Positions 1,203 through 25,435 of a stretch of DNA of 64,000 nucleotides are shown here, piece after piece. Below the pieces are notes generated by a model. That model did not search any database. It was given only the letters and a program-made list of their open reading frames with translations, and was not told where the DNA came from. The number at the start of each line of letters is the position of its first letter. The stretch's first letter is position 1. The position numbers were made by a program, and so were the translations under genes. The stretch comes from Candidatus Parepulonipiscium sp. PG-Nuni2H_MBin01 (GTDB lineage Bacteria > Bacillota > Clostridia > Lachnospirales > Cellulosilyticaceae): contig MDJM01000064.1 in the NCBI GenBank assembly GCA_001994995.1, positions 1-64,000 on the forward strand, in the 5' to 3' direction.

Positions 1203-3482
1203 CTAGTTTTTATAAAAATTGATTAATGAACCTTTTAATAACACTTCTTTTTCTTCTGGCTCTATATCATTTAAATTTAATTGAATTTGTTGTGTTGTAC
1301 CATTTTCCTTTATTAATGTTGCTGGTATTTGTTTTACGCCATTAGCTAATTTGTCTTTTATCTGTTCTAAGTAAATATAATCATTACGTTCTAGTTTATC
1401 CATAACACTTGGCTCTGCTGTAAATGGCAGTATACCCCAGTTTACTAGGTTTGAACGATAACGTTTTGTTGCATATTCCACACTGATGTTTGCTAGGCCT
1501 CCTAATACTTTTTGACAAGATGCAGCTTGCTCACGTGCCGAACCGTCTCCTGGTTTAACAGCATATACTAAGCTTCCAAAGCCGGTGGTTTTTAAAAACT
1601 CTTCTAAATTAGTAGTATCTTTTTGTACATGTGCTACTAGCTCTTCTAGGTCTTTTGATATATTTGTTTCTTCGCCTTTATCGATTAATCTTCTTTCTTC
1701 TTCAAGTGCAAGTATTTCCTTTGCACTACCTACATACTGTGGGTCACGTCTTGAAAGAGTATAATCAGACATTCTCTTTGGATTTGAGCGGTATGTTGCT
1801 GCGTCGCCTGATGGAATTAATTCATCGGTTGTTGTTACATCATCTTTTATTACAGCTGATACTTTTAATAGTATATTATCTTTAAGTTCTATCATTTCAG
1901 GCCATTCTGTGATGTTAGGACCGAATTTTAACTCGCTTTTATTATCAGGTTTTTCAAAACCATTATATACACGTTTGTATGGTATTTCATCAAATGTATA
2001 TTGTACTTTTGGTTCCGTAAAATCAATTTCTGTAGCGGCTGTTAATACTCCGCCGTTTAATGCTGTTGCAGCAATACTTCTGGCATCCATTAATGCTACT
2101 GATGTTAATTGTCCTTCGCCTGGTTTTGACCCTTCGCGATTTGGAAAATTACGTGTAGTATGTCTAATTGATAATGAGCCATGTGCTGGTACATCTCCAG
2201 CTCCAAAACAAGGACCACAGAATGCAGGTTTTATTATTGCGCCATTTTGTGTTAAATCTTTTGCACTATTATCATCTAACATTTTAGAATAGATAGGTGT
2301 GCTAGCAGGATATATATTTAAGGTAAAGTAATCATTTGTAAGTATATGGTCTTTTAAAATTTCACGTGTTGCTTGGATATTCTCATACATTCCACCAGCA
2401 CAACCTGCTATCTCAGCTTGGTCTACATGTAATTTGCCATCTTTAATTTTACTGCGTAAATCCAGTTTTAACTTTGGATTACTTATTTGTTTTTGAGCTT
2501 CTTGTTCCACTTTTGCTAAAATTTCTTCTAAATTTGCGTTTAGTTCATTAATGGTGTAAGCATTTTTAGGATGAAAAGGTAATGCTATCATACATTCAAT
2601 TTTACTTAAATCAATTCTGATAAGCCCGTCATAAAGTGCTATAGCCCCAGGTTTTAACTCTTTATATTCTTCTTTACGATTGTGGATTTCATAATATTCT
2701 TTAACTTTATCGTCTGTAGTCCAAATAGATGATAGGCAAGTAGTTTCAGTTGTCATAACATCAATACCATTTCTAAAATCAATAGATAAATCGTCAACTC
2801 CAGGTCCAACAAATTCCATAACTTTATTTTTTACAAAGCCGTTATCGAATACTTCGCGAATTAATGCTAATGCTACATCTTGAGGGCCCACACCATTTCT
2901 TAATTTGCCTTCTAAGTAAACAGCGATTACCTCAGGGTTTTTCATATCATAAGTATTATTAAGCAGCTGTTTTACAAGCTCTCCGCCACCTTCGCCAATA
3001 CCCATGCAACCTAATGCTCCGTATCTAGTATGACTGTCCGTACCTAAAATCATTTTACCGCAGCCTGCCATAACTTCTCTCATATATTGATGAATAACAG
3101 CTTGATTTGCAGGTACGAAAATACCACCATATTTTTTTGCTGATGTGAGACCAAATAAATGGTCATCATCATTTAGTGTACCACCAACTGCACACAAACT
3201 ATTGTGGCAGTTAGTTAAAACATAAGGGATAGGAAATTTTTCAAGACCGCTTGCTTTAGCAGTTTGCACTACCCCAACATATGTTAAGTCATGAGAGGTT
3301 AAGGAATCGAATTTTAATTTTAAGTTAGTTGTGTCACCTTCATTATGTGCTGCAAAAATACGTGCTGTCATAGTATTAGAAATTGCTACTTCTTCAGAAA
3401 CGCTACTATTTAAAATTGTACTATGTAGCGCGATTTCCTCATTATCATAGAGCCATACTTTTTCGTTGTTTAAAGTTATCAT
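1203..3482 (-). CDS. Aconitase-family hydratase (YbhJ-like)
   Basis: This 759-residue cytoplasmic enzyme belongs to the aconitase superfamily, which reversibly hydrates and dehydrates carboxylic acids on a [4Fe-4S] cluster. TDSHTRYGALGCMG near residue 150 matches the aconitase TDSHT signature. The predicted cluster ligands are Cys361 (AGCAGG) and Cys422/Cys425 (CGPC), giving the family spacing C-x60-C-x2-C. A swivel-like C-terminal domain follows from about residue 580. It is closer in length and motifs to the E. coli YbhJ group than to true aconitase or LeuC. It is transcribed after the MatC-like transporter (18-nt gap) and before prpF, which suggests hydration or isomerisation of an imported tricarboxylate. 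Which acid is an open question. Confidence 0.88.
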   Translation of the reverse strand: MITLNNEKVWLYDNEEIALHSTILNSSVSEEVAISNTMTARIFAAHNEGDTTNLKLKFDSLTSHDLTYVGVVQTAKASGLEKFPIPYVLTNCHNSLCAVGGTLNDDDHLFGLTSAKKYGGIFVPANQAVIHQYMREVMAGCGKMILGTDSHTRYGALGCMGIGEGGGELVKQLLNNTYDMKNPEVIAVYLEGKLRNGVGPQDVALALIREVFDNGFVKNKVMEFVGPGVDDLSIDFRNGIDVMTTETTCLSSIWTTDDKVKEYYEIHNRKEEYKELKPGAIALYDGLIRIDLSKIECMIALPFHPKNAYTINELNANLEEILAKVEQEAQKQISNPKLKLDLRSKIKDGKLHVDQAEIAGCAGGMYENIQATREILKDHILTNDYFTLNIYPASTPIYSKMLDDNSAKDLTQNGAIIKPAFCGPCFGAGDVPAHGSLSIRHTTRNFPNREGSKPGEGQLTSVALMDARSIAATALNGGVLTAATEIDFTEPKVQYTFDEIPYKRVYNGFEKPDNKSELKFGPNITEWPEMIELKDNILLKVSAVIKDDVTTTDELIPSGDAATYRSNPKRMSDYTLSRRDPQYVGSAKEILALEEERRLIDKGEETNISKDLEELVAHVQKDTTNLEEFLKTTGFGSLVYAVKPGDGSAREQAASCQKVLGGLANISVEYATKRYRSNLVNWGILPFTAEPSVMDKLERNDYIYLEQIKDKLANGVKQIPATLIKENGTTQQIQLNLNDIEPEEKEVLLKGSLINFYKN

Positions 3483-3500
3483 AATTTAAGTCCCCCTTAA

Positions 3501-4781
3501 TTAACCAATAAAACTATATAAACCAATCCAAGCTAAAAATACATTAAGTACCGAAACTCCGATACCTGCCATAAATAGCTGCCCAAATATTTTGTTTTGT
3601 TCTGCATCTGAAATTTTATTACCAGAAGTAGAAGCAACAGCAGCAAGAATTAATCCGCCTCCAGTAGAAGCTGGTGAGAATGCTGCAGAAAAAGAACCAG
3701 TCATAACACAGCTTAATAATTCAACGAATTCAACGTTTCCGCCAAACTCTGTAACAATACCACCTAGAGTAGGTATCATAGTTGGCATAACTACCCCAGT
3801 TGTAGAGCTTACAAAAGAAAGTAAACTACTTGCACCAGCAATGATTGCACCAGAAGTGCTTTCTGTCATAATTGAAAGTAATGCAGTTGTTAATAATGTA
3901 ATACCACCAAGTTGATTAACGATATTCATTAAAACTCCAACTCCACAGATTAGCATTAAAGTACCCCAAGGCACTTTAGCTAAAGCAGCTTTTTCATCAC
4001 AAATACCAATAAAGCTTAAAAGTGCAGCCATAAAGAAAGAAGCTAAGCCAACATCAATATTAAATCCAAGAACCATTGCAACCATAATACCCATAGCAAC
4101 GATTGTAATCCATTGTTCTTTGTTAAGCTTACCTAATGAAGCTCTATCTAAAGTTCCTTCACCTTTTTTTATAGATTTTCTAAATAGAATTGTAAATAAA
4201 ATAAAACAAACAAAGCCCCATAAAATAAGGTTATAGAATACTGGCATAGAAAACGTTGCAGGGTCATAACCAGAAGCTGAACCTAAGTTAGCACCAACAA
4301 TACCTGCTGGAGTAATAGGTGACATCGCAAAACCGTTTGTACCTGCTTTTACAACTAAAGCATAGAAAATTGGATTTTGTCCAGTTGAAACAGCAATAGT
4401 AATTGCAACAACTGTCATAAGTGCCCCCATTGAAATATTACCAGGACCAATAGCTGTTAAAAATCCTCCAAGTATCCATAAAATAAAAGGTACTAAATAA
4501 GTTTTATCACCTACTAAAGAAACAGTCTTTTTAGCTACCAATTCAAGTGTACCATTTACCTGAGCAACCCCGAATAAATAAGTAACCCCCACTAATTGAG
4601 TAAATAATTTTGCATCAAACCCCGCGTAAATAGATGAGTCGGATATCCCTGCAATTCTGCCTAATATGATTGAGGCACCAATTGCCAGTAGACCAATATT
4701 CATTTTTTTTAAAAACCCAACAGTGATAGTAACTACTAAAAATACTAGCGATATAATGTCTAAATATTGCGCCATAAACAT
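3501..4781 (-). CDS. MatC-like dicarboxylate/tricarboxylate transporter
   Basis: This 426-residue integral membrane protein has about 11-12 hydrophobic segments. The N-terminal half contains AIGPGNISMGALMTV and MSPITPAGIVGANLGSASG, patterns of the MatC / SLC13-like permeases that bring C4-dicarboxylates or tricarboxylates into the cell. A second related half holds SSTTGVVMPTMIPT and AAFSPASTGGGLI, an inverted-repeat arrangement typical of this ion-transporter superfamily. It is the first gene of a minus-strand operon with the hydratase and PrpF-family isomerase, so its substrate is probably the one they process. The start is an ATG preceded by AAGGAGA. Confidence 0.85.
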   Translation of the reverse strand: MFMAQYLDIISLVFLVVTITVGFLKKMNIGLLAIGASIILGRIAGISDSSIYAGFDAKLFTQLVGVTYLFGVAQVNGTLELVAKKTVSLVGDKTYLVPFILWILGGFLTAIGPGNISMGALMTVVAITIAVSTGQNPIFYALVVKAGTNGFAMSPITPAGIVGANLGSASGYDPATFSMPVFYNLILWGFVCFILFTILFRKSIKKGEGTLDRASLGKLNKEQWITIVAMGIMVAMVLGFNIDVGLASFFMAALLSFIGICDEKAALAKVPWGTLMLICGVGVLMNIVNQLGGITLLTTALLSIMTESTSGAIIAGASSLLSFVSSTTGVVMPTMIPTLGGIVTEFGGNVEFVELLSCVMTGSFSAAFSPASTGGGLILAAVASTSGNKISDAEQNKIFGQLFMAGIGVSVLNVFLAWIGLYSFIG

Positions 4782-5238
4782 TCTCCTTTCTTATGTGTTA
4801 AATTTTTTAGATATTATGTATAAATAAATTAGAATTAGATGGAATTAATAATATATTTTTACAACTACTATCTGAATTTAACTTAAAATTTATTAATAAC
4901 TTGCTGTAAATATATAGTACCATTTTAATTTATTTAAGTAAAATACTTAATTGTTATATAACTTATAACTATAATCTATATTTTGGTAAAATTTAGTAGT
5001 ACTTATTAGTTATACTAGGAGAAGTGCATAACTAATAATATAGTTAGTTTTATCTAAATTTATAAGTATAAATAAGATAAGACTAGTTAATTTATTATAT
5101 ATGTCCCCTTTATAAGCAAAAAAGAAAAATTATAGAGTAAAGTTGTATTAAAAAGAAAAAAATTGGTAAAAATTTAACATATATAAAAATAAAGGAGACC
5201 CTATCTGTAAAGGTTATGAGTTTAACACAAATCAATAG
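4782..5238. other. Divergent intergenic region, AT-rich
   Basis: No gene is seen in this 457-bp stretch between the transporter (left) and the DUF815 region (right). Visible elements are a perfect palindrome TTAAGTA-AAA-TACTTAA at 4934-4950 and the word TTTAACTTAAA at 4877-4887, both in the upstream region of the transporter operon. I could not assign a convincing -35/-10 pair to either side. A riboswitch-like core is not apparent. Confidence 0.5.
4934..4950. promoter_or_regulatory. Palindromic operator candidate upstream of transporter operon
   Basis: TTAAGTA and TACTTAA form a perfect 7-bp dyad around a 3-nt centre, about 155 bp upstream of the carboxylate transporter start. Its size fits a dimeric repressor site. 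No regulator gene is adjacent, so the assignment rests on symmetry alone, and AT-rich DNA produces such dyads by chance. Confidence 0.25.
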
Positions 5239-5331
5239 ATGCAAGAAAAGTTTATTAGTAGAGAGGAGGTAGCAAGAATATGCCCATTTATTGAAGAGGG
5301 AGTATTCTTGCTAAATTTAGATGAAATTTAA
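5239..5331 (+). CDS. Candidate 30-residue leader peptide upstream of DUF815 gene
   Basis: A 30-codon frame begins with MQEKFISREEVARICPF and stops with TAA 11 nt inside the following DUF815 gene. Its composition looks protein-like. It would explain how the downstream gene is translated, because that gene has no Shine-Dalgarno sequence at a normal distance and could be read by termination-reinitiation. Against it, I see no good ribosome site 5-12 nt before its own ATG, and an in-frame stop lies directly upstream. It contains both arms of the inverted repeat at 5270-5313. Function unknown. Confidence 0.3.
   Translation: MQEKFISREEVARICPFIEEGVFLLNLDEI
5270..5313 (+). promoter_or_regulatory. Leader inverted repeat before DUF815 gene
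   Basis: TAGCAAGAATA (5270-5280) and TATTCTTGCTA (5303-5313) are perfect 11-bp complements separated by 22 nt. The loop carries the purine-rich GAGGGAG (5296-5302) and a second GAGGAGG lies just before the left arm (5263-5269). The right arm ends 7 nt before the DUF815 ATG. Folding could gate initiation or bring an SD-like loop close to the start. Confidence 0.45.
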
Positions 5332-6505
5332 TAAATTGCTTATTTACCGAAATTTTGAAGATGGAAATATTTTAGAAAATATTGAAGATAAACCTTATGA
5401 GTGTATTAATAAGATTATAGAGTTAGCCAATAACTATGGATTTGAAGGCAATCTATGGCATACGTTTTTAACATTTTTACTAGTAACTAATCAAAATGGC
5501 TATAGTTTGGCCTGTGAACTAACAGGTGATGTAGACGGTAGTATTAACCAGCTTGTTTATAATGATTTTAAGTTAATCAAAAAGTGGTTTGAATATGACT
5601 TAGCTATGGGTAAAGCTTTAAAAGAGTATAAAGTAGTACAAAATTTTCCTAAGTTAATAAACTCTAATATGTGTAACACGCTAAATGCGCTGGCTGTTGA
5701 CTTAGCTAAAGCTCCTACTGTAAATGAGTTTAAAAATATAATTACAAATTATTATAAACAGTATGGTGTTGGTCAGTTTGGTTTATATAAAGCGTTCCGT
5801 TTTAATGGTAAAAAAATAGTGCCTGTAACAAATACTGCTGATGTGAAGTTAGATGATTTAATAGGGTATGAAATACAAAAGGCACAGTTAATTAGAAATA
5901 CAGAAGCATTTTTAGAAGGGCATGCGGCAAATAATTGTTTGCTATTTGGAGAAGCTGGTACAGGAAAGTCTACTTCTATTAAGGCGATTTTAAACCAGTA
6001 TTGTAACCGCGGATTACGTATTATTGAAGTTTATAAACATCAATTTGTAAATATTCATGAAGTTTTAAACCAGATTAAAAATAGACAGTATAAATTTATT
6101 ATATATATGGATGACTTATCATTTGAGGATTTTGAGACAGAATATAAGTATTTAAAATCAGTTATTGAAGGTGGTTTAGAATATTATAATGTTTTAATTT
6201 ATGCCACTTCAAACCGTCGGAATTTAATTCGCGAAGAGTTTAATGATAGAACAGATGTTCATGTTACTGATACTTTGCAGGAAAAGGTATCACTAGTATC
6301 TAGGTTTGGGGAGCTTATTTATTTTGGTAAACCTAATTTAGGGGAGTTTAATGAGATGGTCAGAACTTTAGCGATTAAGAATAATTTAGATATTGCAGAT
6401 GATGAACTCATTAAGTTGGCCAATGCTTGGGAGATTAGTCATAAGGGTAGAACGGGTAGAGCAGCTCAACAGTTTATAAATAATGTGATGACTTTTAAAA
6501 GATAG
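5321..6505 (+). CDS. DUF815-family AAA+ ATPase
   Basis: This 394-residue cytoplasmic protein has a helical N-terminal region (1-180) followed by an AAA+ core. Walker A is GEAGTGKS (210-217) and Walker B is FIIYMDD (Asp264/Asp265). A sensor-like YATSNRRNLI follows, and a C-terminal lid contains SHKGRTGRAAQQF. This layout matches the DUF815 (COG2607) ATPases, whose cellular role is not established. An in-frame TAG at 5318-5320 forces the start to 5321 or later. The nearest SD-like sequence is 18 nt upstream and separated by a hairpin arm, which is unusual. It is followed by a strong bidirectional terminator, so it is essentially monocistronic. Confidence 0.9.
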   Translation: MKFNKLLIYRNFEDGNILENIEDKPYECINKIIELANNYGFEGNLWHTFLTFLLVTNQNGYSLACELTGDVDGSINQLVYNDFKLIKKWFEYDLAMGKALKEYKVVQNFPKLINSNMCNTLNALAVDLAKAPTVNEFKNIITNYYKQYGVGQFGLYKAFRFNGKKIVPVTNTADVKLDDLIGYEIQKAQLIRNTEAFLEGHAANNCLLFGEAGTGKSTSIKAILNQYCNRGLRIIEVYKHQFVNIHEVLNQIKNRQYKFIIYMDDLSFEDFETEYKYLKSVIEGGLEYYNVLIYATSNRRNLIREEFNDRTDVHVTDTLQEKVSLVSRFGELIYFGKPNLGEFNEMVRTLAIKNNLDIADDELIKLANAWEISHKGRTGRAAQQFINNVMTFKR

Positions 6506-13759: not shown

Positions 13760-14965
13760 ATGAAGAGGTTAAAATTAATTTTAGCAACTCTTGCACTTAC
13801 TGTATTAGTAGGATGCGATAATGTAGATGATGACATAATACAGATTACATTTTGGCATGTACTTAATGGTAGTCAAGAGACGTTATTACAAACTCTAACT
13901 GATGAATTTACAGCACAAAATGAAGGTATTACAATTAATTTAGTAAACAAAACTAATCATAGTGAACTTAGCTCACAAATTACAGCAGCTTTAATTAGTC
14001 CTAAAACTTTACCTACCATTAGTCAGGCATATATTGATTGGATGCTTAATCCTATTGCTGATGGGTTAGTAATTGATATACTGCCTTATATTTTATCATA
14101 TCCTGATGGACAAAATAGACTTGACGATTGCATAGATGGATTTATCAAACCGCTGATGATTAACGATGCTTTATACGGGTTACCATTTACTAAATCTAGT
14201 GAAGTTATATGGTATAATAAAACCTTGTTTGACGAATTGGGTTTAAAGCCTCCTACTTCATTTGAGGAGCTAACAGAAGTGTCAAAAATAATTTATAGTG
14301 AAAAAGGCATACCAGGTGCGGGGTTTGATTCACTATCTAATTATTTCTATACATACTTATATGGAAATGGTGTTAAATATGACCCAACTAATGATAATCA
14401 GGAAATTTTAAATGAAATGGTGAACTACTATTTAGATGGAGTTAATGAAGGATATTTTAGGATATCTGGCACAGACAGATTTTTATCACAGCCATTTGGA
14501 GATGAAATGTTAGGTATGTATATTGGTTCTACAGCTTCAGAAAGCTTTATAACAGATAATGTTGATGGTAAATTTGAAATTGAAGCGGCACCACATCCGG
14601 CTGGTTATTCTATTCAACAAGGTACTGATGTATTTATATTTTCTAGTGCTGACGACTCGCAAAGAGAAGCTGCATATGCATACTTAAGGCATTTAGCCAG
14701 CCCCGAAGTTCAGCAACAATGGGCTATTGAAACAGGTTATTTACCTATTAAAGAATCTGTTTTAGAAATGCCAGAGTATAAAGAATCTGACTCACATATA
14801 CCTAAGTTAGATTTTACTCTTTATAGCAAAACTATGGTTACTAACGCAAATACTATAGTTTCTGAAATAGAATTAACGTTAGAAACTATCTTGTCTAGCC
14901 AAAATCCAGATGTAGAAAAAGAAATGTTGGATTTAGAAAGTAAATTATTATCGTATTGGGATTAG
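13760..14965 (+). CDS. Extracellular solute-binding lipoprotein, family 1
   Basis: This 401-residue lipoprotein has signal MKRLKLILATLALTVLVGC with lipobox Cys19. The mature N-terminus ITFWHVLNGSQETLLQTLTDEF and the central GLPFTKSSEVIWYNKTLFDELGL are diagnostic of family-1 carbohydrate/glycerol-phosphate binding proteins (UgpB/MalE type). It delivers substrate to the two permeases encoded immediately upstream. An intrinsic terminator follows at once, closing the operon. The substrate cannot be told from sequence. Confidence 0.9.
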   Translation: MKRLKLILATLALTVLVGCDNVDDDIIQITFWHVLNGSQETLLQTLTDEFTAQNEGITINLVNKTNHSELSSQITAALISPKTLPTISQAYIDWMLNPIADGLVIDILPYILSYPDGQNRLDDCIDGFIKPLMINDALYGLPFTKSSEVIWYNKTLFDELGLKPPTSFEELTEVSKIIYSEKGIPGAGFDSLSNYFYTYLYGNGVKYDPTNDNQEILNEMVNYYLDGVNEGYFRISGTDRFLSQPFGDEMLGMYIGSTASESFITDNVDGKFEIEAAPHPAGYSIQQGTDVFIFSSADDSQREAAYAYLRHLASPEVQQQWAIETGYLPIKESVLEMPEYKESDSHIPKLDFTLYSKTMVTNANTIVSEIELTLETILSSQNPDVEKEMLDLESKLLSYWD

Positions 14966-14992
14966 GAGCTTGTGATTACAAGCTCTTTTTTT
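14966..14992 (+). terminator. Intrinsic terminator of sugar ABC operon
   Basis: GAGCTTG-TGATTA-CAAGCTC followed by a T-run, starting just after the stop codon. Confidence 0.92.
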
Positions 14993-15075
14993 GGCTAATA
15001 AAGATATAAAGTAACCTTTATTAAATAAATTTTTTATAAGATATATAAAATATGCAATTGAGTTGCGTTTTTATA

Positions 15076-15104
15076 TTGACATTGAAGTATTATGATAATA
15101 TAAT
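15076..15104 (+). promoter_or_regulatory. Consensus sigma-A promoter of metal ABC operon
   Basis: TTGACA (15076-15081), exactly 17 nt, then TATAAT (15099-15104): a perfect consensus promoter. The transcribed leader is about 55 nt. Confidence 0.9.
15088..15100. promoter_or_regulatory. Operator candidate overlapping the metal-operon promoter
   Basis: TATTAT-G-ATAATA is a perfect 6-1-6 dyad inside the promoter spacer and reaching the -10 box, where a bound repressor would block polymerase. Fur-family regulators (Zur, PerR, MntR-like) use AT-rich dyads of this size. It does not match the known Bacillus Zur box exactly. Regulator identity is inferred only from the operon's function. Confidence 0.45.
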
Positions 15105-15164
15105 ATTTTATATAATTATTTTTTTACTCAGCAGTATGAGTAAATAAGACGGGGGGCTTCTTAA

Positions 15165-16298
15165 ATGAATTTTAAATCAAGTTTAGTGAAAAGTTTAGGC
15201 TTAGTAGTGCTTACAAGCCAATTAGCAGGATGTTCAATTAGTGCTATGGAAAGTACAAATTTGCAGCAATCCACTTTTAAAGTAGTATGCTCAAGTTTTC
15301 CAGTATATGAATGGGCTAATGCTATTATTGGTGATAGTAATAATATAGAACTTACATTGCTTATGGATAATGGAGTTGACCCACATAACTATCAAGCTTC
15401 TGCTCAAGACATTATTACACTTCAAACTTGTGATGTGTGTATTTACATAGGAAGTACTTCGGAAAGCTGGATTTTTGATGCTCTTACTAGCAACGTTTAT
15501 GCAATAAATTTAATGGATAATTTAACAGAGTTTTTAATAGAAACTGCTGAACCTTGCTGTACTGTTGCATCAACTGAATATATAGATGTTCCTACTTTTT
15601 TAAGTAGTTCTTTAGAGGAAGAATTAGAGACAGAAGAAGAATGTACTTTACCATGTTGCTTAGCAACAGAGGTTAGTGAAGAGCTAGTTATCGAAGAGCC
15701 GGTTATTGAAGAACTAGTTATCGAAGAACTGGTTATCGAAGCAACTGAGCTAGTTATCGTAGAAAATAGTGGATATTTTGATGAGCACATATGGCTTTCA
15801 GCACAATTAGCGATTGAGTCTTGTAACATAATTGCTGATGCAATAATAGAAATAGATTCTGAAATGACTGAATTATACACACTAAATTTAACAACTTATA
15901 TAAAAAAACTGCAAGAAATTGATGAAAAATTCCAAGAGATAGTTGATAATACTGATAATAATGTGTTAATATTTGGAGATAGGTTTCCATTTAGATACTT
16001 ACTTTCAGATTATGGAATAGAACACTATGCCGCATTCGTAGGATGCTCGGCTGAAACAGAAGCATCATTTGAAACAGTAGTATATTTAACAGAAATGCTA
16101 AACGAAACTACAGCAAGTGCAGTATGTTATATTACAAATTTAGATTTAGCAAATACTATAGTGCAAAACTCAAATGACCCAACTGCTCCAACAATACAAT
16201 TTAATGCTATGGAAACTATAGATTTCTCTAATAACGAAATTAGTTATATATATTTTATGGAACAAAATTTAAATGCTTTAACAACAGCATTGAGATAA
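15165..16298 (+). CDS. Zinc/manganese-binding lipoprotein (ZnuA/TroA family) with Glu/Cys-rich insert
   Basis: This 377-residue lipoprotein has lipobox LAGC (Cys23). It is a cluster A-I metal-binding protein. SSFPVYEWANAI, NGVDPHNYQAS, DEHIWLSAQLAIESCN and FGDRFPFRYLLSDYGIEHYAAF provide the two lobes and the metal-ligand His/Asp set typical of clostridial members. Between them, where ZnuA proteins carry a His-rich loop, residues 131-198 hold Cys131/132, Cys160, Cys164/165 and five Glu-rich repeats (EELVI, EEPVI, EELVI, EELVI, EATELVI) encoded by tandem 15-nt units. The loop may collect metal. The gene leads an operon with an ATPase and a permease. Confidence 0.9.
   Translation: MNFKSSLVKSLGLVVLTSQLAGCSISAMESTNLQQSTFKVVCSSFPVYEWANAIIGDSNNIELTLLMDNGVDPHNYQASAQDIITLQTCDVCIYIGSTSESWIFDALTSNVYAINLMDNLTEFLIETAEPCCTVASTEYIDVPTFLSSSLEEELETEEECTLPCCLATEVSEELVIEEPVIEELVIEELVIEATELVIVENSGYFDEHIWLSAQLAIESCNIIADAIIEIDSEMTELYTLNLTTYIKKLQEIDEKFQEIVDNTDNNVLIFGDRFPFRYLLSDYGIEHYAAFVGCSAETEASFETVVYLTEMLNETTASAVCYITNLDLANTIVQNSNDPTAPTIQFNAMETIDFSNNEISYIYFMEQNLNALTTALR
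15678..15758 (+). repeat. Tandem 15-nt coding repeats in metal-binding lipoprotein
   Basis: Four units of the form GAAGARCYRGTTATY and a fifth lengthened to 21 nt lie head to tail and stay in frame, coding for EELVI-type pentapeptides (residues 172-198). Near-identity of the units points to recent slippage or unequal recombination. Confidence 0.9.
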
Positions 16299-16310
16299 GA
16301 AAGGGATACT

Positions 16311-16967
16311 ATGGAACAAATAATATGCAAAAATCTTGAAATAGGATACGACAGAAAAGTAATAATGGGCCCTCTTAATATTATAATTAATGAAGGTGAC
16401 TATTGGTGCATTACTGGTGCAAATGGCGCAGGTAAAACTACATTTATAAAGACTTTATTAAATTTAACGCCAATTATTGGCGGAGCAATTAATTTGCAAA
16501 ATGAGCTTAAGCAAATTGATATAGGCTATTTACCGCAACAAAAGCCATATCAAAAAAACTTTCCTGCTTCAGTAGAAGAAATAGTAAGGTCAGGATTTCT
16601 TAATAAAATTAATATCAGATTTTACTACAATCATCATGAAAAAGAACTTGCAAAAACAACAATTACAAAATTAGGAATTGCAGGACTGGAAAAAAGAGCA
16701 TATGGTTCGCTTTCAGGTGGCCAGCAACAGCGAGTATTATTAGCTCGCGCTCTATGCGCTTCTAGTAAAGTTATTATTCTAGATGAGCCTATAGCAGGAC
16801 TTGACCCCGTTGCTACACAAGAAATGTATAGCGTAATTAGAAAGCTAAATCAAGAAGAAAATATAACTATAATTATGATATCTCATGATATACTACACGC
16901 AACTGCTGATGCTAAACAAATGCTACACTTTGATGGGAACGGAAAATATACAATAACTCACAAATGA
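16311..16967 (+). CDS. znuC: Metal ABC transporter ATPase (ZnuC-like)
   Basis: This 218-residue ABC ATPase of the zinc/manganese type has Walker A GANGAGKTT, Q-loop YLPQQ, signature LSGGQQQRVLLARAL, Walker B VIILDEP and the switch His in MISHDILHA, all intact. It lies 12 nt after the binding lipoprotein and 10 nt before the permease, an operon order seen in many znu/adc loci. It drives metal import from the lipoprotein through the ZnuB-like permease. Zinc is favoured over manganese from the binding-protein subgroup, but this is not certain. Confidence 0.88.
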   Translation: MEQIICKNLEIGYDRKVIMGPLNIIINEGDYWCITGANGAGKTTFIKTLLNLTPIIGGAINLQNELKQIDIGYLPQQKPYQKNFPASVEEIVRSGFLNKINIRFYYNHHEKELAKTTITKLGIAGLEKRAYGSLSGGQQQRVLLARALCASSKVIILDEPIAGLDPVATQEMYSVIRKLNQEENITIIMISHDILHATADAKQMLHFDGNGKYTITHK

Positions 16968-16977
16968 GAGGTGCAAA

Positions 16978-17814
16978 ATGTTTGAATTATTAAAATACTA
17001 CTTATCATTTTCATTCGTACAATACGCGCTAATAGTAGGTGTTCTAGTATCGTTATGCTCTGGTCTGCTAGGCGTAATATTAGTACTTAAAAGATTTGCT
17101 TATATAGGAGATGGACTTTCACATGTAGCATTTGGGGTAATGTCTGTTGCCATGTGCTTAAATATGGTTGATAATATGTTATTAACTATACCTGTAACAA
17201 TAATAGTAGCTATACTACTAATAAAAGACGGTTCAAATAGAAAACTTACAGGAGACACGGCATTAGCAATGCTATCAGTTGGTTCAATGGCGTTTGGCTA
17301 TTTAATTATAAATGTATTTGCAACATCCTCTAATATTGCGGGTGATGTATGTTCGGCTTTATTTGGTGCAACATCAATACTAACTTTATCTTCACAAGAT
17401 GTAAAAATTAGTGTAGCAATGTCTCTAATAGTCATCTGTATATTTATAATATACTACAATAAAATATTTACTGTAACTTTTGATGAGACATTTGCAAAAG
17501 CTACTGGGATAAAGACAGATAAATACAACCTACTAATTGCTGTAATAACTGCAATAGTAATAGTAATAGCTATGAATTTAGTGGGCGCGCTACTAGTTTC
17601 AGCATTAATAATATTCCCTGCAGTATCTGCGATGACGCTATTTCATCAATTTAATTACGTTGTAATATTATCAGGATGTCTTTCTATTTTTAATTCAGCA
17701 GCAGGCATAATAATATCAATACTATTTAGCACACCTGTTGGTGCAACAATCGTTATGACAAGCGTAGCAACATTTTTTATATTAAAAATATTGTCTCTAC
17801 TAATAAAAAGGTAA
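16978..17814 (+). CDS. znuB: Metal ABC transporter permease (ZnuB-like)
   Basis: This 278-residue membrane protein has about eight hydrophobic helices. KRFAYIGDGLSHVAFG is the ABC-3 family cytoplasmic motif. Further family hallmarks are GDVCSALFGA, TFDETFAKATGIKTDKYN and MNLVGALLVSALIIFPA. It forms the channel for metal delivered by the lipoprotein and energised by the preceding ATPase. A ribosome site GAGAGG precedes the ATG, and a strong terminator follows. Confidence 0.88.
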   Translation: MFELLKYYLSFSFVQYALIVGVLVSLCSGLLGVILVLKRFAYIGDGLSHVAFGVMSVAMCLNMVDNMLLTIPVTIIVAILLIKDGSNRKLTGDTALAMLSVGSMAFGYLIINVFATSSNIAGDVCSALFGATSILTLSSQDVKISVAMSLIVICIFIIYYNKIFTVTFDETFAKATGIKTDKYNLLIAVITAIVIVIAMNLVGALLVSALIIFPAVSAMTLFHQFNYVVILSGCLSIFNSAAGIIISILFSTPVGATIVMTSVATFFILKILSLLIKR

Positions 17815-17815
17815 T

Positions 17816-17853
17816 GCGAGCAAATCCTAAATAGGATTTACCTCGCTTTTTTT
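17816..17853 (+). terminator. Intrinsic terminator of metal ABC operon
   Basis: GCGAG and AAATCCT pair with AGGATTT and CTCGC, followed by seven T, directly after the permease stop codon. Confidence 0.93.
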
Positions 17854-17923
17854 ATGAATTACTCCAATGTAAAAGACATATAAATTTTATAACAGCCTAT
17901 TTTGATGAAAGGAGAATAGATAC

Positions 17924-18790
17924 ATGTATATTACTCGTAGTCTATGGTCATTCTTACAAACCCAGCAAAAAAGCTTTATAAGAGTTACAGCCTTAGAGAT
18001 GAGCAATCAATTTATATTTTTAGCCAATTATCTATTTTGTGCAATAGCATTGATAGGTATTATTCAAGAAAATACAAGTGATTTTGAAACCTCAATAACT
18101 ATCATGTTTATACTGTCAATAGCTAAAATTATATTATCTAGAGTAACTGCCCACGTGTTATCTACACAAACAAGCCATATAAAAGTAATGTTGCGAATAG
18201 ACTTACTTCATAAACTATTTAATTTGGGCTACATAGAGAAAACTCAAAGTGACGAACTAATATCAATACTAACACAAAAAGTAACTTGGCTAAGCTATTA
18301 CTGTTTAGAATACTTACCTAAAGCCATAGCTACAATCATTACAAGTTTTATAATAATTATGCTTACAACAATCATATATGTACCTCTGGGATTAATAGTT
18401 CTCATATGTTCTATAACTATACTTTATATGTACCGTATAATAAAAGAAAAAGAAATTACCGAGCAATCTTGTGAAATTGATTTAACTGGCTTAAGTACTC
18501 TAAAAGCCTTTAATATTAAGCCTACCATAACCGACATTCCACGCCCAAAAATCATAATATATTCTATATCTCGTATATACGAAATTATTTTAAATTGTGG
18601 ATTTTACCTACCATTTGTAGGAGGAATATTTTGTGTTATTGCAGCTAAAATAACTATAGCTAATCTAATAATTTTATTTTTTATATTAACTGCTTGGCAT
18701 TACCTAATGCATCAAATTACTGTTATTTGGGAACAAAACGGCAATTTTCTAATGGAACTTAACGATATTTTAGAAATATATCAACTATAG
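17924..18790 (+). CDS. ABC-exporter-like membrane protein without nucleotide-binding domain
   Basis: This is a 288-residue protein with five to six hydrophobic segments arranged as in the transmembrane half of ABC exporters (CydD-like). IRVTALEMSNQFIFLANYLF is an N-terminal helix, IDLLHKLFNLGYIEK and DELISILTQKVTWLSYYCLEYLPK occupy the coupling-helix region, and ITEQSCEIDLTGLSTLKAFN resembles the intracellular loop before helix 5. The chain ends after the last helix, with no Walker A, signature or Walker B motif. The coding frame is undisturbed, which argues against a recent truncation. It is followed after 11 nt by a second exporter-like gene whose ATPase motifs are lost. Function unknown. 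Confidence 0.7.
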   Translation: MYITRSLWSFLQTQQKSFIRVTALEMSNQFIFLANYLFCAIALIGIIQENTSDFETSITIMFILSIAKIILSRVTAHVLSTQTSHIKVMLRIDLLHKLFNLGYIEKTQSDELISILTQKVTWLSYYCLEYLPKAIATIITSFIIIMLTTIIYVPLGLIVLICSITILYMYRIIKEKEITEQSCEIDLTGLSTLKAFNIKPTITDIPRPKIIIYSISRIYEIILNCGFYLPFVGGIFCVIAAKITIANLIILFFILTAWHYLMHQITVIWEQNGNFLMELNDILEIYQL

Positions 18791-18801
18791 GAGATGATTT
18801 A

Positions 18802-20373
18802 ATGGAAAAAACTAAATATAAGCACATTATAGCAGCGCTTAGCCGAATTGATAATATTAAAATTTATCTACTAACCTCTTGCGCAGTTAGGTCTATACGT
18901 AAACTTTCTGTAGCAATAATCTTTCTGCTTTCGGCGTGGGCTACACAACAATTAATAACTAGCTCCTATAACATTGTACATTATTATATTGTAGCTATGA
19001 TACCCACTATTACAGTTATTTCATTTATAGATACATATATATCAAGCCATATATCTAATAATATCCTAAATAATCTTAGAGAAACTATCTACAATAAACT
19101 ATATGATATAGCTCCTATAAAACATAAATTTACACCTGTGCTTGGTGGTGATTTAGAAACTTTTGAAAGATTTTACTCAACTATTTTAGTAGAATATTTA
19201 AGCACTATTATCACTGTTATTACTCTACTTGGTTTACTATTATTTCAATCTACTTCGGTGTTTCTAATTACATTTATAACTGCCATTTTCCTTATAGTTA
19301 TTCCACAATTAATAGTATCGTGTTCTGAAGCTAAAGACTTTAATTTAAAACAACTTTATAATCAATTACACAGTGTTATCTCAGATGGGGTTTTAGGATT
19401 AAACAGCCAATTAGAAAGGACTTATTTGGCTAAAGTTCATGCCGCTTCATCCGAATATGATTACTATAACGGCCAGTTTAAATTCACTATAGAAAAAAAT
19501 ATCTTATATACTATAGGGAGTATATCGTTTATTATTTCTTTAGCATTCTTATTCTTAACTCGGGAGCCTAATTCTATATATATTTTTTCTATTGTTTTTA
19601 TTATTATAAGCGAAATACTTAAGCTAAGTTCGGATTATAGCCCTATTTTTGCAGTAGCGAAAAAACTTATGAATATTTTTAATTTAAAACCTGCTGTCAT
19701 TGATACTGGAAGTGTACGTTCAAGCTCTGATGCATTTAAAACTCTGCCTCTTTGTGTATCCTTTAACAACGTAACGTTTGAATCTAATTTTGATTCACTA
19801 GCGTTAGATGATGTAAGTTTTACTACTAATAATATTACCGCTATTATTTCTGATAGCCACTGTGCTATCGTGCAATTATTACAACGCTTTTACGATGTTG
19901 ACAAAGGCCAAATTTGTATTAATGCTATTAATATTAAATATATTGTGTTAAGCGATTTACGTAAACTTATCTTTTGTGTTTCCATTGACAATCACTTATT
20001 TAACACCTCTATTGAGGATAATTTACGATTAGCTAATCCTACTATATCATTTAAAGAAATTGAAACTGCTGCAGTTTTAACTAATGCTGATTTTTTTATT
20101 AAACAACTTCCTAAAGGCTATCAATCAACTATTGATCTTATTTCGTTATCCACTGAACAAAAGTTACTGATACTTTTAACTCAAGCTCTTTTGCTTAACA
20201 CCCCTATTCTTATCTTAGTCGATTTCCCTGAGACTTTACTAAATGATAATTTATTACTGCTATTTAGAAGTAGTAAAACTGTTATCACCTTTTCTAAAGA
20301 ATTCTCATCTACATCTTCTTATGCTGACAAAGTTATATTTGTGAAAAATGGTATGGTTCAACAAGTGATATAA
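18802..20373 (+). CDS. ABC-exporter-like protein with degenerate ATPase domain
   Basis: This is a 523-residue protein with a six-helix transmembrane half (about 20-290) and an ABC-type domain (about 310-523) that keeps the fold's landmarks: CVSFNNVTFES, LQRFYDVDKGQICINAINIKY, SIEDNLRLANPTIS and ADFFIKQLPKGYQSTI. All nucleotide-binding motifs have gone. The Walker A position (about 344-360) reads IISDSHCAIVQLL with no GxGK(S/T). The signature reads LSTEQKLLILLTQALL instead of LSGGQ. Walker B reads ILILVDFPE with no catalytic Glu in place. ATP hydrolysis is not expected. The intact frame suggests selection for another role with the partner at 17924. An AGGAGATG ribosome site precedes the ATG. 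Confidence 0.75.
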   Translation: MEKTKYKHIIAALSRIDNIKIYLLTSCAVRSIRKLSVAIIFLLSAWATQQLITSSYNIVHYYIVAMIPTITVISFIDTYISSHISNNILNNLRETIYNKLYDIAPIKHKFTPVLGGDLETFERFYSTILVEYLSTIITVITLLGLLLFQSTSVFLITFITAIFLIVIPQLIVSCSEAKDFNLKQLYNQLHSVISDGVLGLNSQLERTYLAKVHAASSEYDYYNGQFKFTIEKNILYTIGSISFIISLAFLFLTREPNSIYIFSIVFIIISEILKLSSDYSPIFAVAKKLMNIFNLKPAVIDTGSVRSSSDAFKTLPLCVSFNNVTFESNFDSLALDDVSFTTNNITAIISDSHCAIVQLLQRFYDVDKGQICINAINIKYIVLSDLRKLIFCVSIDNHLFNTSIEDNLRLANPTISFKEIETAAVLTNADFFIKQLPKGYQSTIDLISLSTEQKLLILLTQALLLNTPILILVDFPETLLNDNLLLLFRSSKTVITFSKEFSSTSSYADKVIFVKNGMVQQVI

Positions 20374-20386
20374 TTACACAAAAATA

Positions 20387-20412
20387 AAGTCCACGCTTAA
20401 TTACGTGGACTT
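20387..20412. terminator. Bidirectional terminator between ABC-like and TerD genes
   Basis: AAGTCCACG (20387-20395) and CGTGGACTT (20404-20412) form a perfect 9-bp stem with A-rich left and T/A-rich right flanks, between convergent genes. Confidence 0.85.
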
Positions 20413-20425
20413 ATAAAAAACTGCC

Positions 20426-21013
20426 TTAAGAATATCTGTGGATTACTTGCTCAATAGTTCCATCTTCAGTACCATTACCTATAGCATTAAACTTCCATTC
20501 GTTATTATTCCGATAAATTTCACCAAAAATAATAGCTGTCATATTAGAATAATCATCTGTTAAATTATAACGGCAAAGTTCTGTATCACTTCTAGCATCT
20601 ACTACTCGAACAAATGCATTTTCAATCATACCAAAATGTTGTTTTCTAATATACGCCTGATAAATATTAACAAACACAATAACTGAACTATACTGAGATG
20701 GAACCCGATTTAAATCAACAATAATCTGCTCATCGTCTCCATCACCTTCACCCGTAAGATTATCCCCCAAATGAAGTACCGAGCCACTTCTATGAGTAAG
20801 ATTTCTAAAACAAACAATGTCACTAGCTTCTTGTAATTTTCCATTCTGCAAAAGGGCAGCCGAAGCATCACAATCTATAGCCATATCTCTTGAAAAAAAT
20901 TCCTTTTTTCTTCTAGGTAACTCGTCCCATCCAAGACCTACTACCAATTTAGACAATCCACTATTTCCTTTAGTTAAATCCACCTTCTGTCCTTTTTGTA
21001 AACTAATTGCCAT
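20426..21013 (-). CDS. TerD family protein
   Basis: This 195-residue cytoplasmic protein starts MAISLQKGQKVDLTKG, the TerD-domain signature. Acidic calcium-binding loops are visible: MAIDCDASAALL and [15 protein letters not shown]. The end FGEIYRNNNEWKFNAIGNG is also conserved. TerD proteins are linked to tellurite and other stress resistance, with an unclear mechanism. It differs from its upstream paralog by an inserted RRKKEFFSRDM segment after the first strand. It is second in a two-gene operon, 24 nt after the first terD. No terA/B/C/Z partners are present in the window. Confidence 0.92.
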   Translation of the reverse strand: MAISLQKGQKVDLTKGNSGLSKLVVGLGWDELPRRKKEFFSRDMAIDCDASAALLQNGKLQEASDIVCFRNLTHRSGSVLHLGDNLTGEGDGDDEQIIVDLNRVPSQYSSVIVFVNIYQAYIRKQHFGMIENAFVRVVDARSDTELCRYNLTDDYSNMTAIIFGEIYRNNNEWKFNAIGNGTEDGTIEQVIHRYS

Positions 21014-21037
21014 AAATAATCCCTCCCTAATAAGCCT

Positions 21038-21622
21038 CTACTCTACTTCAATGCCATAATAATTACACAAAGCTGCAAGCCCTCCTTGGAAACCACTACC
21101 TATAGCACTAAACTTCCACTCATCTTGATATCTATAAATTTCCCCAACTACAATAGCTGTTTCTATCGAAAAATCTTCTGCTAAATCATATCTAATAATT
21201 TCACTACCTGTTAATTCATCTACTAGGCGAATAAATGCATTATCAACCTGTCCAAAATTTTGCTTACGTTCTAAAGCCTCATGTATAGTAACAGTAAAAG
21301 CGATTTTAGAGACATAACTAGGAATTAAATCTAATTCAATCATAATTTGTTCATCATCACCTTCACCCTCGCCAGTCAAATTATCTCCTTGATGAATAAC
21401 TCCTTCGCTATCATGAACTAAATTTCCGTAAAATACAAAATCTAAGTCATCAAGGCACTTTCCATCGCTTCCTGTTAAAAATACGGAAGCATCTAAATCA
21501 AATGCCGAACCACTGCTAAACTGATTAGTATCCCAACCTAACCCCACCATAATTCTACTAAGGTTAGTGCCTTTTGTTAAATCTACTCTTTGTCCTTTTG
21601 ATAAACTAATTGCCATTGTCAA
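21038..21622 (-). CDS. TerD family protein
   Basis: This 194-residue TerD-domain protein contains [62 protein letters not shown] and [20 protein letters not shown]. All acidic residues expected for calcium binding are present, making it the more canonical of the pair. AGGAGGTTGACA lies before the start. The ATG four codons upstream of MAIS could also be used (MTMAIS). It is first in the terD-terD operon with a consensus promoter. The role is probably envelope or stress response, by family. Confidence 0.92.
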
Positions 21623-21660
21623 CCTCCTAGTTATTACCTAATTATTACTAATTTTATTTT

Positions 21661-21689
21661 AGTATAATATGGATTTTGACCCTTGTCAA
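21661..21689 (-). promoter_or_regulatory. Sigma-A promoter of terD operon
   Basis: On the minus strand TTGACA (21689-21684), 17 nt, then TATACT (21666-21661). The leader is about 35 nt. Confidence 0.88.
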
Positions 21690-21730
21690 GCATAATCCCG
21701 TCGTACTTATTATTACATTTTTACAAAAAA

Positions 21731-21757
21731 ATAGGTCTATGGCTAGTGCCATAGACT
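21731..21757 (-). terminator. Intrinsic terminator of small membrane protein gene
   Basis: On the minus strand GTCTATGGC-ACTA-GCCATAGAC (21756-21735) is followed by CTATTTTTTT, one nucleotide after the stop codon. Confidence 0.92.
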
Positions 21758-22129
21758 CTAAATATTCAAACCTATACCAATTAAAGAAAGTCTTGCTATA
21801 ATACGTGCAAAAATTGGGCCACTTATTTTAGTTAATATAGGTTTAAATAGTTTTTTAATAGCTGATTTTGAAAACTTTTTTATAAAGAAGTCTTTTGTTA
21901 AGAACTTTTTACCACATTCTCTTATGTTCATATCATAAATTTTTGGATTTACTACTAATATTAATGCTGGTATGTATGCCGCAAATCCAACCACAACAAA
22001 TGTTAAAGCTATACCTGTACAAAGTATATCGATTAAATTAATATATGAAGCAAACATTCCAAAAAACGTTAAAGCTATTGTTTCCGCCACTAACTTAATA
22101 GTAGCTACAATACATTTACCAATCTGCAT
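21758..22129 (-). CDS. Small membrane protein of unknown function
   Basis: This is a 123-residue protein with GAGGGGAG before its ATG. Two hydrophobic segments lie at about 10-32 (VAETIALTFFGMFASYI) and 35-60 (LCTGIALTFVVVGFAAYIPALILVV). A strongly basic amphipathic C-terminal part follows (KKFLTKDFFIKKFSKSAIKKLFK). I do not recognise the family. Its own terminator makes it monocistronic. The basic tail suggests a cytoplasmic face bound to lipid or nucleic acid, but that is only inference. Confidence 0.7.
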   Translation of the reverse strand: MQIGKCIVATIKLVAETIALTFFGMFASYINLIDILCTGIALTFVVVGFAAYIPALILVVNPKIYDMNIRECGKKFLTKDFFIKKFSKSAIKKLFKPILTKISGPIFARIIARLSLIGIGLNI

Positions 22130-22484
22130 CTAAACTCCCCTCCCTCTATATATTCCACTTATAATTATAGCAGATTATAATTAATTTTTCAAGTTATCAG
22201 CACTGACTTAAGTTAGATTGTGTTTTTTTAGACAAAATTTAACTTAAATTCCTCTAGAGTTTTATTATATTTAAATCTAAATCTATATAAATTATATAGT
22301 TACTATTTTTTTGATAGTAAAAACTGCTACAATTTAAGCAAATTAAATAGGTAATTTCTTATAAAAATCCATATTGCATTTATTAAAAAAATGCTGTATA
22401 ACTATATTATAAATCATTTGGACTTTGATATAAAATAAACGTTAAGTCAAAGGTCTAGTCTAAAATTTGAAGGGAGATATTATC
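22130..22484. other. Divergent intergenic region with a promoter and a repeated word
   Basis: This is a 355-bp AT-rich spacer. It holds the promoter at 22374-22402, the word TTTAACTTAAA at 22238-22248 (also found at 4877 and 25504) and a weak inverted repeat GGACTTTGA / TCAAAGGTC just before the small gene at 22485. No coding frame or structured RNA stands out. Confidence 0.5.
22374..22402 (+). promoter_or_regulatory. Promoter of small membrane protein gene
   Basis: TTGCAT (22374-22379), 17 nt, TATAAC (22397-22402). The leader is about 75 nt and includes the weak inverted repeat. Confidence 0.65.
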
Positions 22485-22718
22485 GTGGAAAGATTTACTC
22501 AATTGATGGCTCATATGTCTTGTTTAGCCATTATAATAGTGTGTGCTGGTTTAGATTATATGGGGGCGTTGCCAATCTTCAGCGCAATTACAAACGCTAG
22601 TGATGCTATGGAGAATTTTACTTATTTAATGGGTGCTTGGACTGTTATTGGTATTATTTATCAAGCATTTGTATCATTTTTCTACTTTTTATTAAAACAA
22701 GTTCAAAAATCTAACTAA
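22485..22718 (+). CDS. Small two-helix membrane protein, unknown
   Basis: This protein has 77 residues when begun at the GTG of MERFTQLMAHMSC, which has AGGGAG 8 nt upstream. The upstream TTG in the same frame overlaps that ribosome site and is less likely. It has two hydrophobic helices: about 8-32 (CLAIIIVCAGLDYMGALPIF) and 47-70 (YLMGAWTVIGIIYQAFVSFF), ending in a basic KQVQKSN tail. No family is recognised. It has its own promoter and terminator, and it is followed by an independent two-component system. Confidence 0.65.
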   Translation: MERFTQLMAHMSCLAIIIVCAGLDYMGALPIFSAITNASDAMENFTYLMGAWTVIGIIYQAFVSFFYFLLKQVQKSN

Positions 22719-22722
22719 ATAT

Positions 22723-22760
22723 AAAAAGGCTTGGGTATTATAACTACTCAAGTCTTTTTT
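22723..22760 (+). terminator. Intrinsic terminator
   Basis: AAGGCTTGGGTA and TACTCAAGTCTT pair (with G-T pairs) around ATTATAAC, followed by seven T. Confidence 0.85.
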
Positions 22761-22826
22761 TGGATGTAGTGGCTTGAAATAAATATATTTATAAGTTAAA
22801 ATTTTTTGCATAAAGGATGTGATAGA

Positions 22827-23498
22827 ATGATAATTTATACTGCTGAAGATGATAAAAATATTAATAATTTAATAGTGACTCATTTAAAAAACAATGGGTA
22901 TGATGTTAAAGGCTTTCCAAATGGGGAAGCACTTTTAAATGAATTTAAGATAAAACCAGCAGACTTAATAATTACTGATATTATGATGCCAAAGATGACA
23001 GGATACGATTTATGCAAACATATTAGACAATCAAGTAATATTCCTATTATTATGATTAGTGCTAATAATGATGAAATTGACCGAGTACTTGGTTTAGAAT
23101 TAGGTGCAGATGATTATATAGGCAAACCTATTAGCTTTCGTGAGCTAGGTATTAAAGTAAAAAATTTATTAAGGCGTACTAAGCCTGAACACGATAAGGA
23201 AGAAATTTTAAGCCATGAAGATCTCAAGTTGGATTTAAGCGCTCATACGGCTAAAATAGGAGATAAACCGCTTGCTTTAACTCCTAAAGAATTTGATTTA
23301 CTAAAACTATTTTTAAGTTCTATAAATAGAGCGTACACTAGAGAACAGATTATTTCACAAGTATGGGAATATGAATATGATGCAGATACAAGGCAAGTAG
23401 ACCATGTAATTAAACGACTTAGAAAAAAAATGCTAGAGCATGGTGCTCAGTGTCAAATCCAAACTGTTTGGGGCGTAGGATATAAAATTGGTGAATAA
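22827..23498 (+). CDS. OmpR-family response regulator
   Basis: This 223-residue two-component regulator starts at the ATG of MIIYTAEDDKNINN. GGATGTG precedes it, and an in-frame TTG 21 nt upstream is rejected. The receiver domain has acidic pocket EDD, phosphoacceptor in LIITDIMMPKMTG, and the conserved Thr/Ser and Lys in IMISAN and DDYIGKP. The C-terminal winged-helix DNA-binding domain (about 125-223) contains LALTPKEFDLLKLFL and TVWGVGYKIGE. Its kinase gene follows after 2 nt. Target genes are unknown. Confidence 0.93.
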   Translation: MIIYTAEDDKNINNLIVTHLKNNGYDVKGFPNGEALLNEFKIKPADLIITDIMMPKMTGYDLCKHIRQSSNIPIIMISANNDEIDRVLGLELGADDYIGKPISFRELGIKVKNLLRRTKPEHDKEEILSHEDLKLDLSAHTAKIGDKPLALTPKEFDLLKLFLSSINRAYTREQIISQVWEYEYDADTRQVDHVIKRLRKKMLEHGAQCQIQTVWGVGYKIGE

Positions 23499-24931: not shown

Positions 24932-25435
24932 TTAAACTGCCCATTGAGCAGTAGATATGTCTGTTGTAATATTTGTAGCATATTGACTAATTGCATTACT
25001 AAAAGTGGTTTCCTCTTCAGCTTCAGCTTCTTCTTGAGCCTCTTCTATAGCTTCTAAGATAGCTTCAAAAGTTTCTTCTTCAATATTCTCAGTTTCATCT
25101 TCTACCGCAGTTAAAACTGACTCGATAGTAGTATCGTCATCATCTTCATCAGTTGCTGTAAGTGATTCAAAGCTATAGAAGCTACTAGAAGACAATATGT
25201 TTTGCGCATCCATTAAACTTTCAGAAGTGAAAGAATATGAATCGTCAGTAGAGCCGGAATCATCTGAAGATGATGGTGGAGGAGGTGGTGGTGGAGGAGG
25301 CTTTTCCCCTGATCTTTGAGTCTCGTCTGTTCCTTCTGTTTCAGTGCTACTAACATACTTACTAAAATCTTGAGTACTAGAGTAAGATGAGTATAAGCTA
25401 GTATACAAACTAGTACTTGAACTTGAAATTGTCAT
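24932..25435 (-). CDS. Ser/Pro/Glu-rich low-complexity protein, unknown
   Basis: This 167-residue protein has a Ser/Tyr/Thr-rich N-terminus, a run of nine Pro (about 47-55), a Ser/Asp-rich middle and a strongly acidic Glu-rich region predicted to be helical (about 105-145, IEEETFEAILEAIEEAQEEAEAE). The last 20 residues are less biased. No signal peptide or membrane helix is seen. GGGGGAAAT lies before the ATG. It sits between two two-component systems, 93 nt downstream of the sensor kinase on the same strand. The composition suggests a disordered scaffold or surface-type protein. The nine-Pro run would need EF-P for efficient translation. No family recognised. Confidence 0.7.
   Translation of the reverse strand: MTISSSSTSLYTSLYSSYSSTQDFSKYVSSTETEGTDETQRSGEKPPPPPPPPPSSSDDSGSTDDSYSFTSESLMDAQNILSSSSFYSFESLTATDEDDDDTTIESVLTAVEDETENIEEETFEAILEAIEEAQEEAEAEEETTFSNAISQYATNITTDISTAQWAV

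Follow-up and report, generated by a model that had tools for sequence, protein, structure and literature searches.

Two adjacent genes of Candidatus Parepulonipiscium sp. PG-Nuni2H_MBin01, here called P1 and P2, encode proteins that resemble the subunits of an ABC exporter but appear to have no working ATP site. This raises the question of whether they make up a membrane complex that has become independent of ATP, or are what is left of an inactivated transporter. The DNA analysed (hereafter the window) comprises 64,000 nt, namely positions 1-64,000 of the forward strand of contig MDJM01000064.1 (assembly GCA_001994995.1). The pair is known from this one genome, a draft of 88 contigs (95.6% complete, 3.3% contamination). 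Coordinates of the features are collected in Table 1.

Table 1. Features of the P1/P2 locus, in window coordinates.
Feature	Position	Strand	Details
Terminator-like hairpin 3' of znuB, then UUUUUUU	17816-17853	+	-13.9 kcal/mol, z -4.3
Shine-Dalgarno AGGAG of P1	17910-17914	+	sequence
P1 ORF	17924-18790	+	288 aa, ATG start
P1 shortened second intracellular loop	18461-18559	+	in-frame losses of 4, 8, 8 and 4 aa relative to relatives
Shine-Dalgarno AGGAG of P2, overlaps P1 stop	18789-18793	+	sequence
P2 ORF	18802-20373	+	523 aa, ATG start
P2 TMD	18802-19680	+	in-frame losses: ICL1 6 aa, ICL2 4 + 7 aa
P2 pseudo-NBD	19753-20370	+	fold kept in model; 24/38 non-catalytic conserved columns kept
Walker A remnant, SDSHCA	19849-19866	+	GGGK lost, three residues deleted
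Q-loop position, SIDN for PQEV	19981-19992	+	Gln lost; alignment
ABC signature position, LSTEQ for LSGGE/Q	20146-20160	+	alignment
Walker B position, ILILVD	20206-20223	+	Asp-Glu pair lost; alignment
H-loop position, SKE for AHR	20293-20301	+	alignment
Strong hairpin between P2 and convergent terD	20387-20412		U run on - strand only

As an earlier note made from the sequence had stated, both frames are open over 2.4 kb, with a ribosome site before each gene and tight spacing. The gap between the P1 stop and the P2 start is just 11 nt, and there is therefore no NBD remnant between the genes. The upstream hairpin splits the pair from the znuACB operon; as a second hairpin lies on its other side, the pair forms a separate small unit. 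No Rfam match was obtained over 14900-22900. Elsewhere in the family, the gene directly after znuB encodes a small protein of 176-207 aa, a lipoprotein in most (L125, L126, L127, L128), so the position of the pair is not conserved. No P1/P2-like ABC pair follows znuB in relatives where this could be traced, one contig being too short; on this ground and that of the intervening terminator, a functional link to znuACB was rejected. The two terD genes that the earlier note had placed just beyond P2 are indeed there (PF02342). They lie on the opposite strand in convergent orientation, with a hairpin between; a functional link was therefore rejected, and their proximity looks incidental. We found no conserved neighbour at the locus that points to a substrate or signalling partner.

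Three further observations concern the surroundings. The small protein that follows znuB in relatives is absent here (window 17814-17923). ZnuA (PF01297, window 15165-16298) carries an acidic repeat, EEPVIEELVIEELVIEATELVI, within an insert whose position is taken in many ZnuA proteins by a His-rich loop. At window 24932-25435, flanked by two two-component systems, lies a low-complexity ORF of 167 aa in which Ser, Thr and Glu are abundant and nine prolines follow one another.

Membrane domains and nucleotide motifs

P1 is a six-helix ABC-exporter membrane domain (TMD) of the first-subunit lineage, without an ATPase domain (NBD). Aligned to ABC first subunits it ends at the TMD/NBD linker and no NBD is detectable, in keeping with the earlier description of the first protein as a membrane half only. 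Its alignment to the relative at L145:4412-6208 covers 225 aa at 26% identity (E = 8e-14). P1 had no Pfam match, and its best NCBIfam match was a CydD-type TMD (E = 2.3e-9, 36.8 bits against a cut-off of 435). An AF2 model built on a shallow alignment (pLDDT 83) shows six long helices, and its structural matches include TmrB (VIA, Z 21.0, rmsd 2.9 over 274 residues), IrtA (VIA, Z 20.9, rmsd 3.6 over 281 residues) and CydD (Foldseek, TM 0.79-0.80); SbmA chains were absent from the best 50 VIA rows, which proves nothing. Confidence of the model is low over the shortened second intracellular loop (ICL2), and ICL1 carries an in-frame deletion of 2 aa relative to relatives.

P2 is an ABC-exporter subunit of the second-subunit lineage, in which the TMD is joined to a pseudo-ATPase domain. 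It aligns end-to-end with full ABC exporters (27% identity over 502 aa with L145:6210-7961, E = 2e-44) and matches many ABC exporter families, all far under their cut-offs; NCBIfam CydC reached 69.5 bits against 329, and Pfam ABC_tran 19.1 bits against 25. The AF2 model, again from a shallow alignment (pLDDT 78), has a TMD and an NBD fold, with TM287/288, MsbA and IrtB as top Foldseek matches. The second protein had been said to keep the ABC outline without Walker A, signature and Walker B residues, and we found all three lost in the alignment and the fold kept in the model. Walker A reads SDS---HCA where relatives have AESGGGKTT, the signature stretch LSTEQKLL in place of LSGGEKQR, and Walker B ILILVDF in place of VLILDEA. 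The A-loop Y has become S and the D-loop has changed from SASLD to PETLL; also missing are the GERG stretch preceding the signature and the C-terminal tail.

Each ATP site in an ABC pair takes Walker A from one NBD and the signature from the other, and neither site can form here because the first NBD is absent. This two-NBD composition has been described for IrtAB (PMC10246721). As judged from the aligned motifs, the P1/P2 pair has no usable ATP site. Among the features that define an ABC exporter, the models show a six-helix TMD in each subunit; an NBD in each subunit and the nucleotide motifs are missing.

Relatives and descent

Close relatives of P1 and P2 were not found in about 1,900 genome scans, and comparison with 59 near relatives, with 392 genomes from the order and with GTDB r220 contigs yielded nothing above about 30% identity over the protein. 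Against the GTDB r220 contigs, P2 retrieved Streptococcus and other Bacilli exporters at only 27-34%, and a family profile search of viral contigs found canonical exporters only. The best P2 matches came from class-wide and further searches (genomes G882, E = 1e-47; G838, 3e-44; G663, 3e-41; G767, 1e-39), those in the remainder of the phylum being weaker. The nearest relatives are ATPase-intact, canonical subunit pairs of other Clostridia, with 26-30% identity. The earlier note had held that canonical close relatives combined with neutral decay would count against it; the first of these was found, and the second is not indicated by the tests given below.

All of these top P2 matches occupy second place in a gene pair, and the gene in first place matches P1. 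A siderophore/haem-type SBP, a FecCD permease and an ATPase are encoded beside the pairs of G663 (locus L145), G767 (L170), G838 (L169) and G1226 (L174); the pair of G882 (L168) is without such context, and no such genes are among the neighbours of P1/P2, which are znuACB and terD. The relatives' subunits have usable motifs, with A for the first G of Walker A in the second subunits of G882 and G838. In trees, P1 falls with the first subunits of G838, G882, G1226, G767 and G663 (successive groups being supported at 0.84, 0.96 and 0.999), and P2 joins the second subunits of these five genomes (0.88, 0.85 and 1.0); the terminal branches of P1 and P2 are 1.9-2.1 substitutions per site. The genome itself encodes four intact exporter pairs elsewhere, and those included in the tree fall outside the P1/P2 clade; it also encodes stand-alone NBDs. 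On these comparisons, P1 and P2 are shown to share descent, subunit by subunit, with the canonical clostridial pairs. The tree covers clostridial siderophore-linked pairs, which are like IrtAB/YbtPQ in fold and setting. Descent from CydDC-like pairs (contig C33, L073-L082) was considered and rejected, as the siderophore-linked pairs score much better (E about 1e-47 versus 1e-26) and both subunits group with them.

Some features of these loci are recorded here in their own right. Across the order, a CydDC-like pair is repeatedly found beside a DUF454 (YbaN) membrane protein (L089, that is G000:C33:47000-56000, at 2077-6399; L073-L082), at times also with YgbA_NO or FecB/FecCD-like genes, and the CydDC-like first subunit of the present genome (L089) is extended at its C-terminus by more than 100 aa. 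In G838, a SagD-like YcaO cyclodehydratase (L169, 3744-5765) lies between the siderophore-type importer and the ABC pair; it is split over two frames (449 + 223 aa), and the locus is perhaps a RiPP-type metallophore system in which this gene is broken or frameshifted. In G1226, a LytTR DNA-binding domain fused to a Peripla_BP_2 substrate-binding domain (L174, 7500-8873) is encoded next to a radical SAM gene and the ABC pair.

Decay and constraint

The plainest alternative is that P1/P2 is an inactivated transporter with no present function, whose reading frames are by chance still open. It would account for the loss of an entire NBD and of all motifs, the many deletions, and the occurrence of the pair in one genome only. 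The strand composition is also odd: among 41 window genes, only P1 and P2 have negative coding-strand GC skew (-0.12 and -0.13), which arises from low G at codon position 1 and an excess of C over G at position 3.

We found that conserved columns of the P2 NBD have been lost at very different rates, which speaks against decay. P2 keeps only 3 of 24 nucleotide-handling columns and 24 of 38 others (P = 8e-5, by Fisher's exact test); canonical members of the subfamily keep 22-24 of 24-25 nucleotide-handling columns. With a second reference set of 58 exporters the corresponding figures are 3 of 19 and 18 of 26 (P = 7e-4). Over the NBD, P2 is 30-36% identical to its relatives, against 19-22% over the TMD.

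The state of the reading frames also argues against decay. Although about 2 substitutions per site have accumulated, the 2.4 kb contain neither a stop nor a frameshift, and all 18 internal indels in P1 and P2 relative to near relatives are in frame, for which the chance is about 3e-9 if each indel had one in three. In a drift simulation that started from an intact paralogue of the same genome and tracked 11 catalytic residues, loss of most of these residues was accompanied by 18-26 stops in one gene, or about 27-39 over both lengths. The membrane helices have remained hydrophobic: of the 79 membrane columns with a residue exclusive to P1 or P2, 5 have a charged one, where composition would predict 18% (P = 0.002); in other TMD columns the charged share is 22%. 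Two good ribosome sites are present as well. By these tests, the coding sequences were under constraint for most of the divergence, in respect of the fold but not of ATP handling, and the column contrast and the simulation uphold the earlier view that neutral decay is a poor explanation. The very long terminal branches and the negative GC skew are compatible with weak selection, and a long ATP-independent phase that ended recently is possible. Overall, we judge it unlikely that the pair is simply decaying.

An assembly or sequencing artefact might be suspected in a draft genome; base-call errors, however, cannot yield seven altered motifs and 18 in-frame indels, and the flanking znuACB and terD genes match those of other family members. 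We regard this explanation as scarcely credible.

Possible function and known systems

We consider an ATP-independent heterodimer with a pseudo-ATPase domain to be the most likely nature of P1/P2, perhaps acting as a secondary or passive transporter. That the pair is a heterodimeric type IV (exporter-fold) ABC transporter turned independent of ATP seems to us evenly balanced; its occurrence in one genome with no orthologue, and the lack of a conserved neighbour that would back a substrate, count against it. Gene order and descent suggest that P1 and P2 are partners in one complex. The ancestor would have been a canonical pair such as those of other Clostridia, many of which adjoin Fec-type siderophore/haem importers. 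Once the first NBD had gone, the ATP sandwich would have been impossible, and the loss of motifs from the second would follow from this, since they were then free to go; the core of the second NBD may have stayed on as a scaffold or gate in the cytoplasm. The 12-helix heterodimer might still alternate or open, moving a small molecule, perhaps metal- or metallophore-related, passively or via an ion gradient as SbmA does with protons. The substrate may, by descent, be metal-related. Proton coupling is only a guess, and passive or regulatory roles are also possible; membrane columns of P1/P2 show no gain of acidic residues, and an SbmA-like glutamate ladder was not seen in them. The idea that ICL2 of P1 has been kept for docking on the P2 NBD was dropped, as ICL2 is shortened in both chains.

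Two other functional readings need to be weighed. The pair could be a non-transporting membrane complex, that is, a receptor, regulator or inhibitor that binds a ligand or an intact ABC pump in a SUR-like manner, with the pseudo-NBD as contact surface. The better conservation of the NBD core than of the TMD fits this, and the four intact exporter pairs of the genome are possible partners; however, the locus has no signalling partner or conserved neighbour and the intracellular loops meant for NBD contact are shortened, and we think such a role improbable. Alternatively, the pair could still be ATP-driven, with a different ABC system lending it ATPase subunits in trans; the stand-alone NBDs would be candidates for these. 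Since ICL1 and ICL2, the NBD-docking parts, are shortened in both subunits, and the NBD core of P2 itself occupies that place in the model, this appears very improbable.

If P1/P2 works as an ATP-independent pair, it would represent a second, separate route of the ABC exporter fold out of ATP and an intermediate that SbmA lacks, with one NBD gone and the other kept as a pseudo-ATPase; NBD roles beyond hydrolysis (docking, gating, stability) would be testable on a natural protein. If it is decaying, it serves as a warning that long frames can stay open through extreme divergence. The earlier note had taken an ATP-free complex on the exporter fold to be new, which does not hold: both this and heterodimers with one degenerate site are already known. 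A literature search for exporters that lack NBDs, or in which both ATP sites are degenerate, returned only one-site cases and SLiPTs, and a heterodimer with one NBD missing, the other a pseudo-ATPase and its genes open was not found in searchable papers. What might be new is an independent, heterodimeric conversion to ATP-independence in Bacillota, in which one ATPase domain was kept and took on a structural or gating role without catalysis, a proposal that we put forward tentatively and hold to be somewhat doubtful.

Among known systems, the canonical siderophore-linked pairs share the gene order of P1/P2, with P1 corresponding to the first and P2 to the second subunit at 19-36% identity by region; they differ in having Walker A, signature, Walker B and H-loop in the NBDs of both subunits and, in the four genomes named above, in adjoining SBP-FecCD-ATPase genes. 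IrtAB and YbtPQ resemble P1/P2 in their heterodimeric type IV fold, given the matches of the two models to IrtA and IrtB, and in a genomic setting like that of P1/P2's relatives; they are ATP-driven siderophore importers of the exporter fold, whereas P1/P2 has no ATP motifs. CydDC, a haem exporter, provides P1's best NCBIfam TMD match and a fold match, but P1/P2 lacks its ATPase and scores far under the family cut-offs, and a separate CydDC-like pair lies on C33. TM287/288, BmrCD and MsRv1273c/72c are likewise heterodimers that have lost catalytic residues in an NBD; they keep two NBDs and one working site, and P1/P2 has no working site.

The SLiPTs (SbmA/BacA) stem from ABC exporters, have lost NBDs and coupling helices, and are driven by protons (PMC13316013). 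Of the systems known to work, SbmA is the closest analogue of P1/P2: in both, a full ABC transporter gave rise to a membrane domain of exporter type that lacks ATPase activity. Neither P1 nor P2 matched the SbmA_BacA family in Pfam or NCBIfam. Where SLiPTs have lost the coupling helices, P1/P2 has shortened ICL1 and ICL2 in both chains. SLiPTs are homodimers with 8 TMs per chain, no NBD and a glutamate ladder; P1/P2 would be a heterodimer of 6-TM chains with one pseudo-NBD and no visible ladder. A retained, repurposed ATPase domain would set the pair apart from SLiPTs and one-site-degenerate exporters alike.
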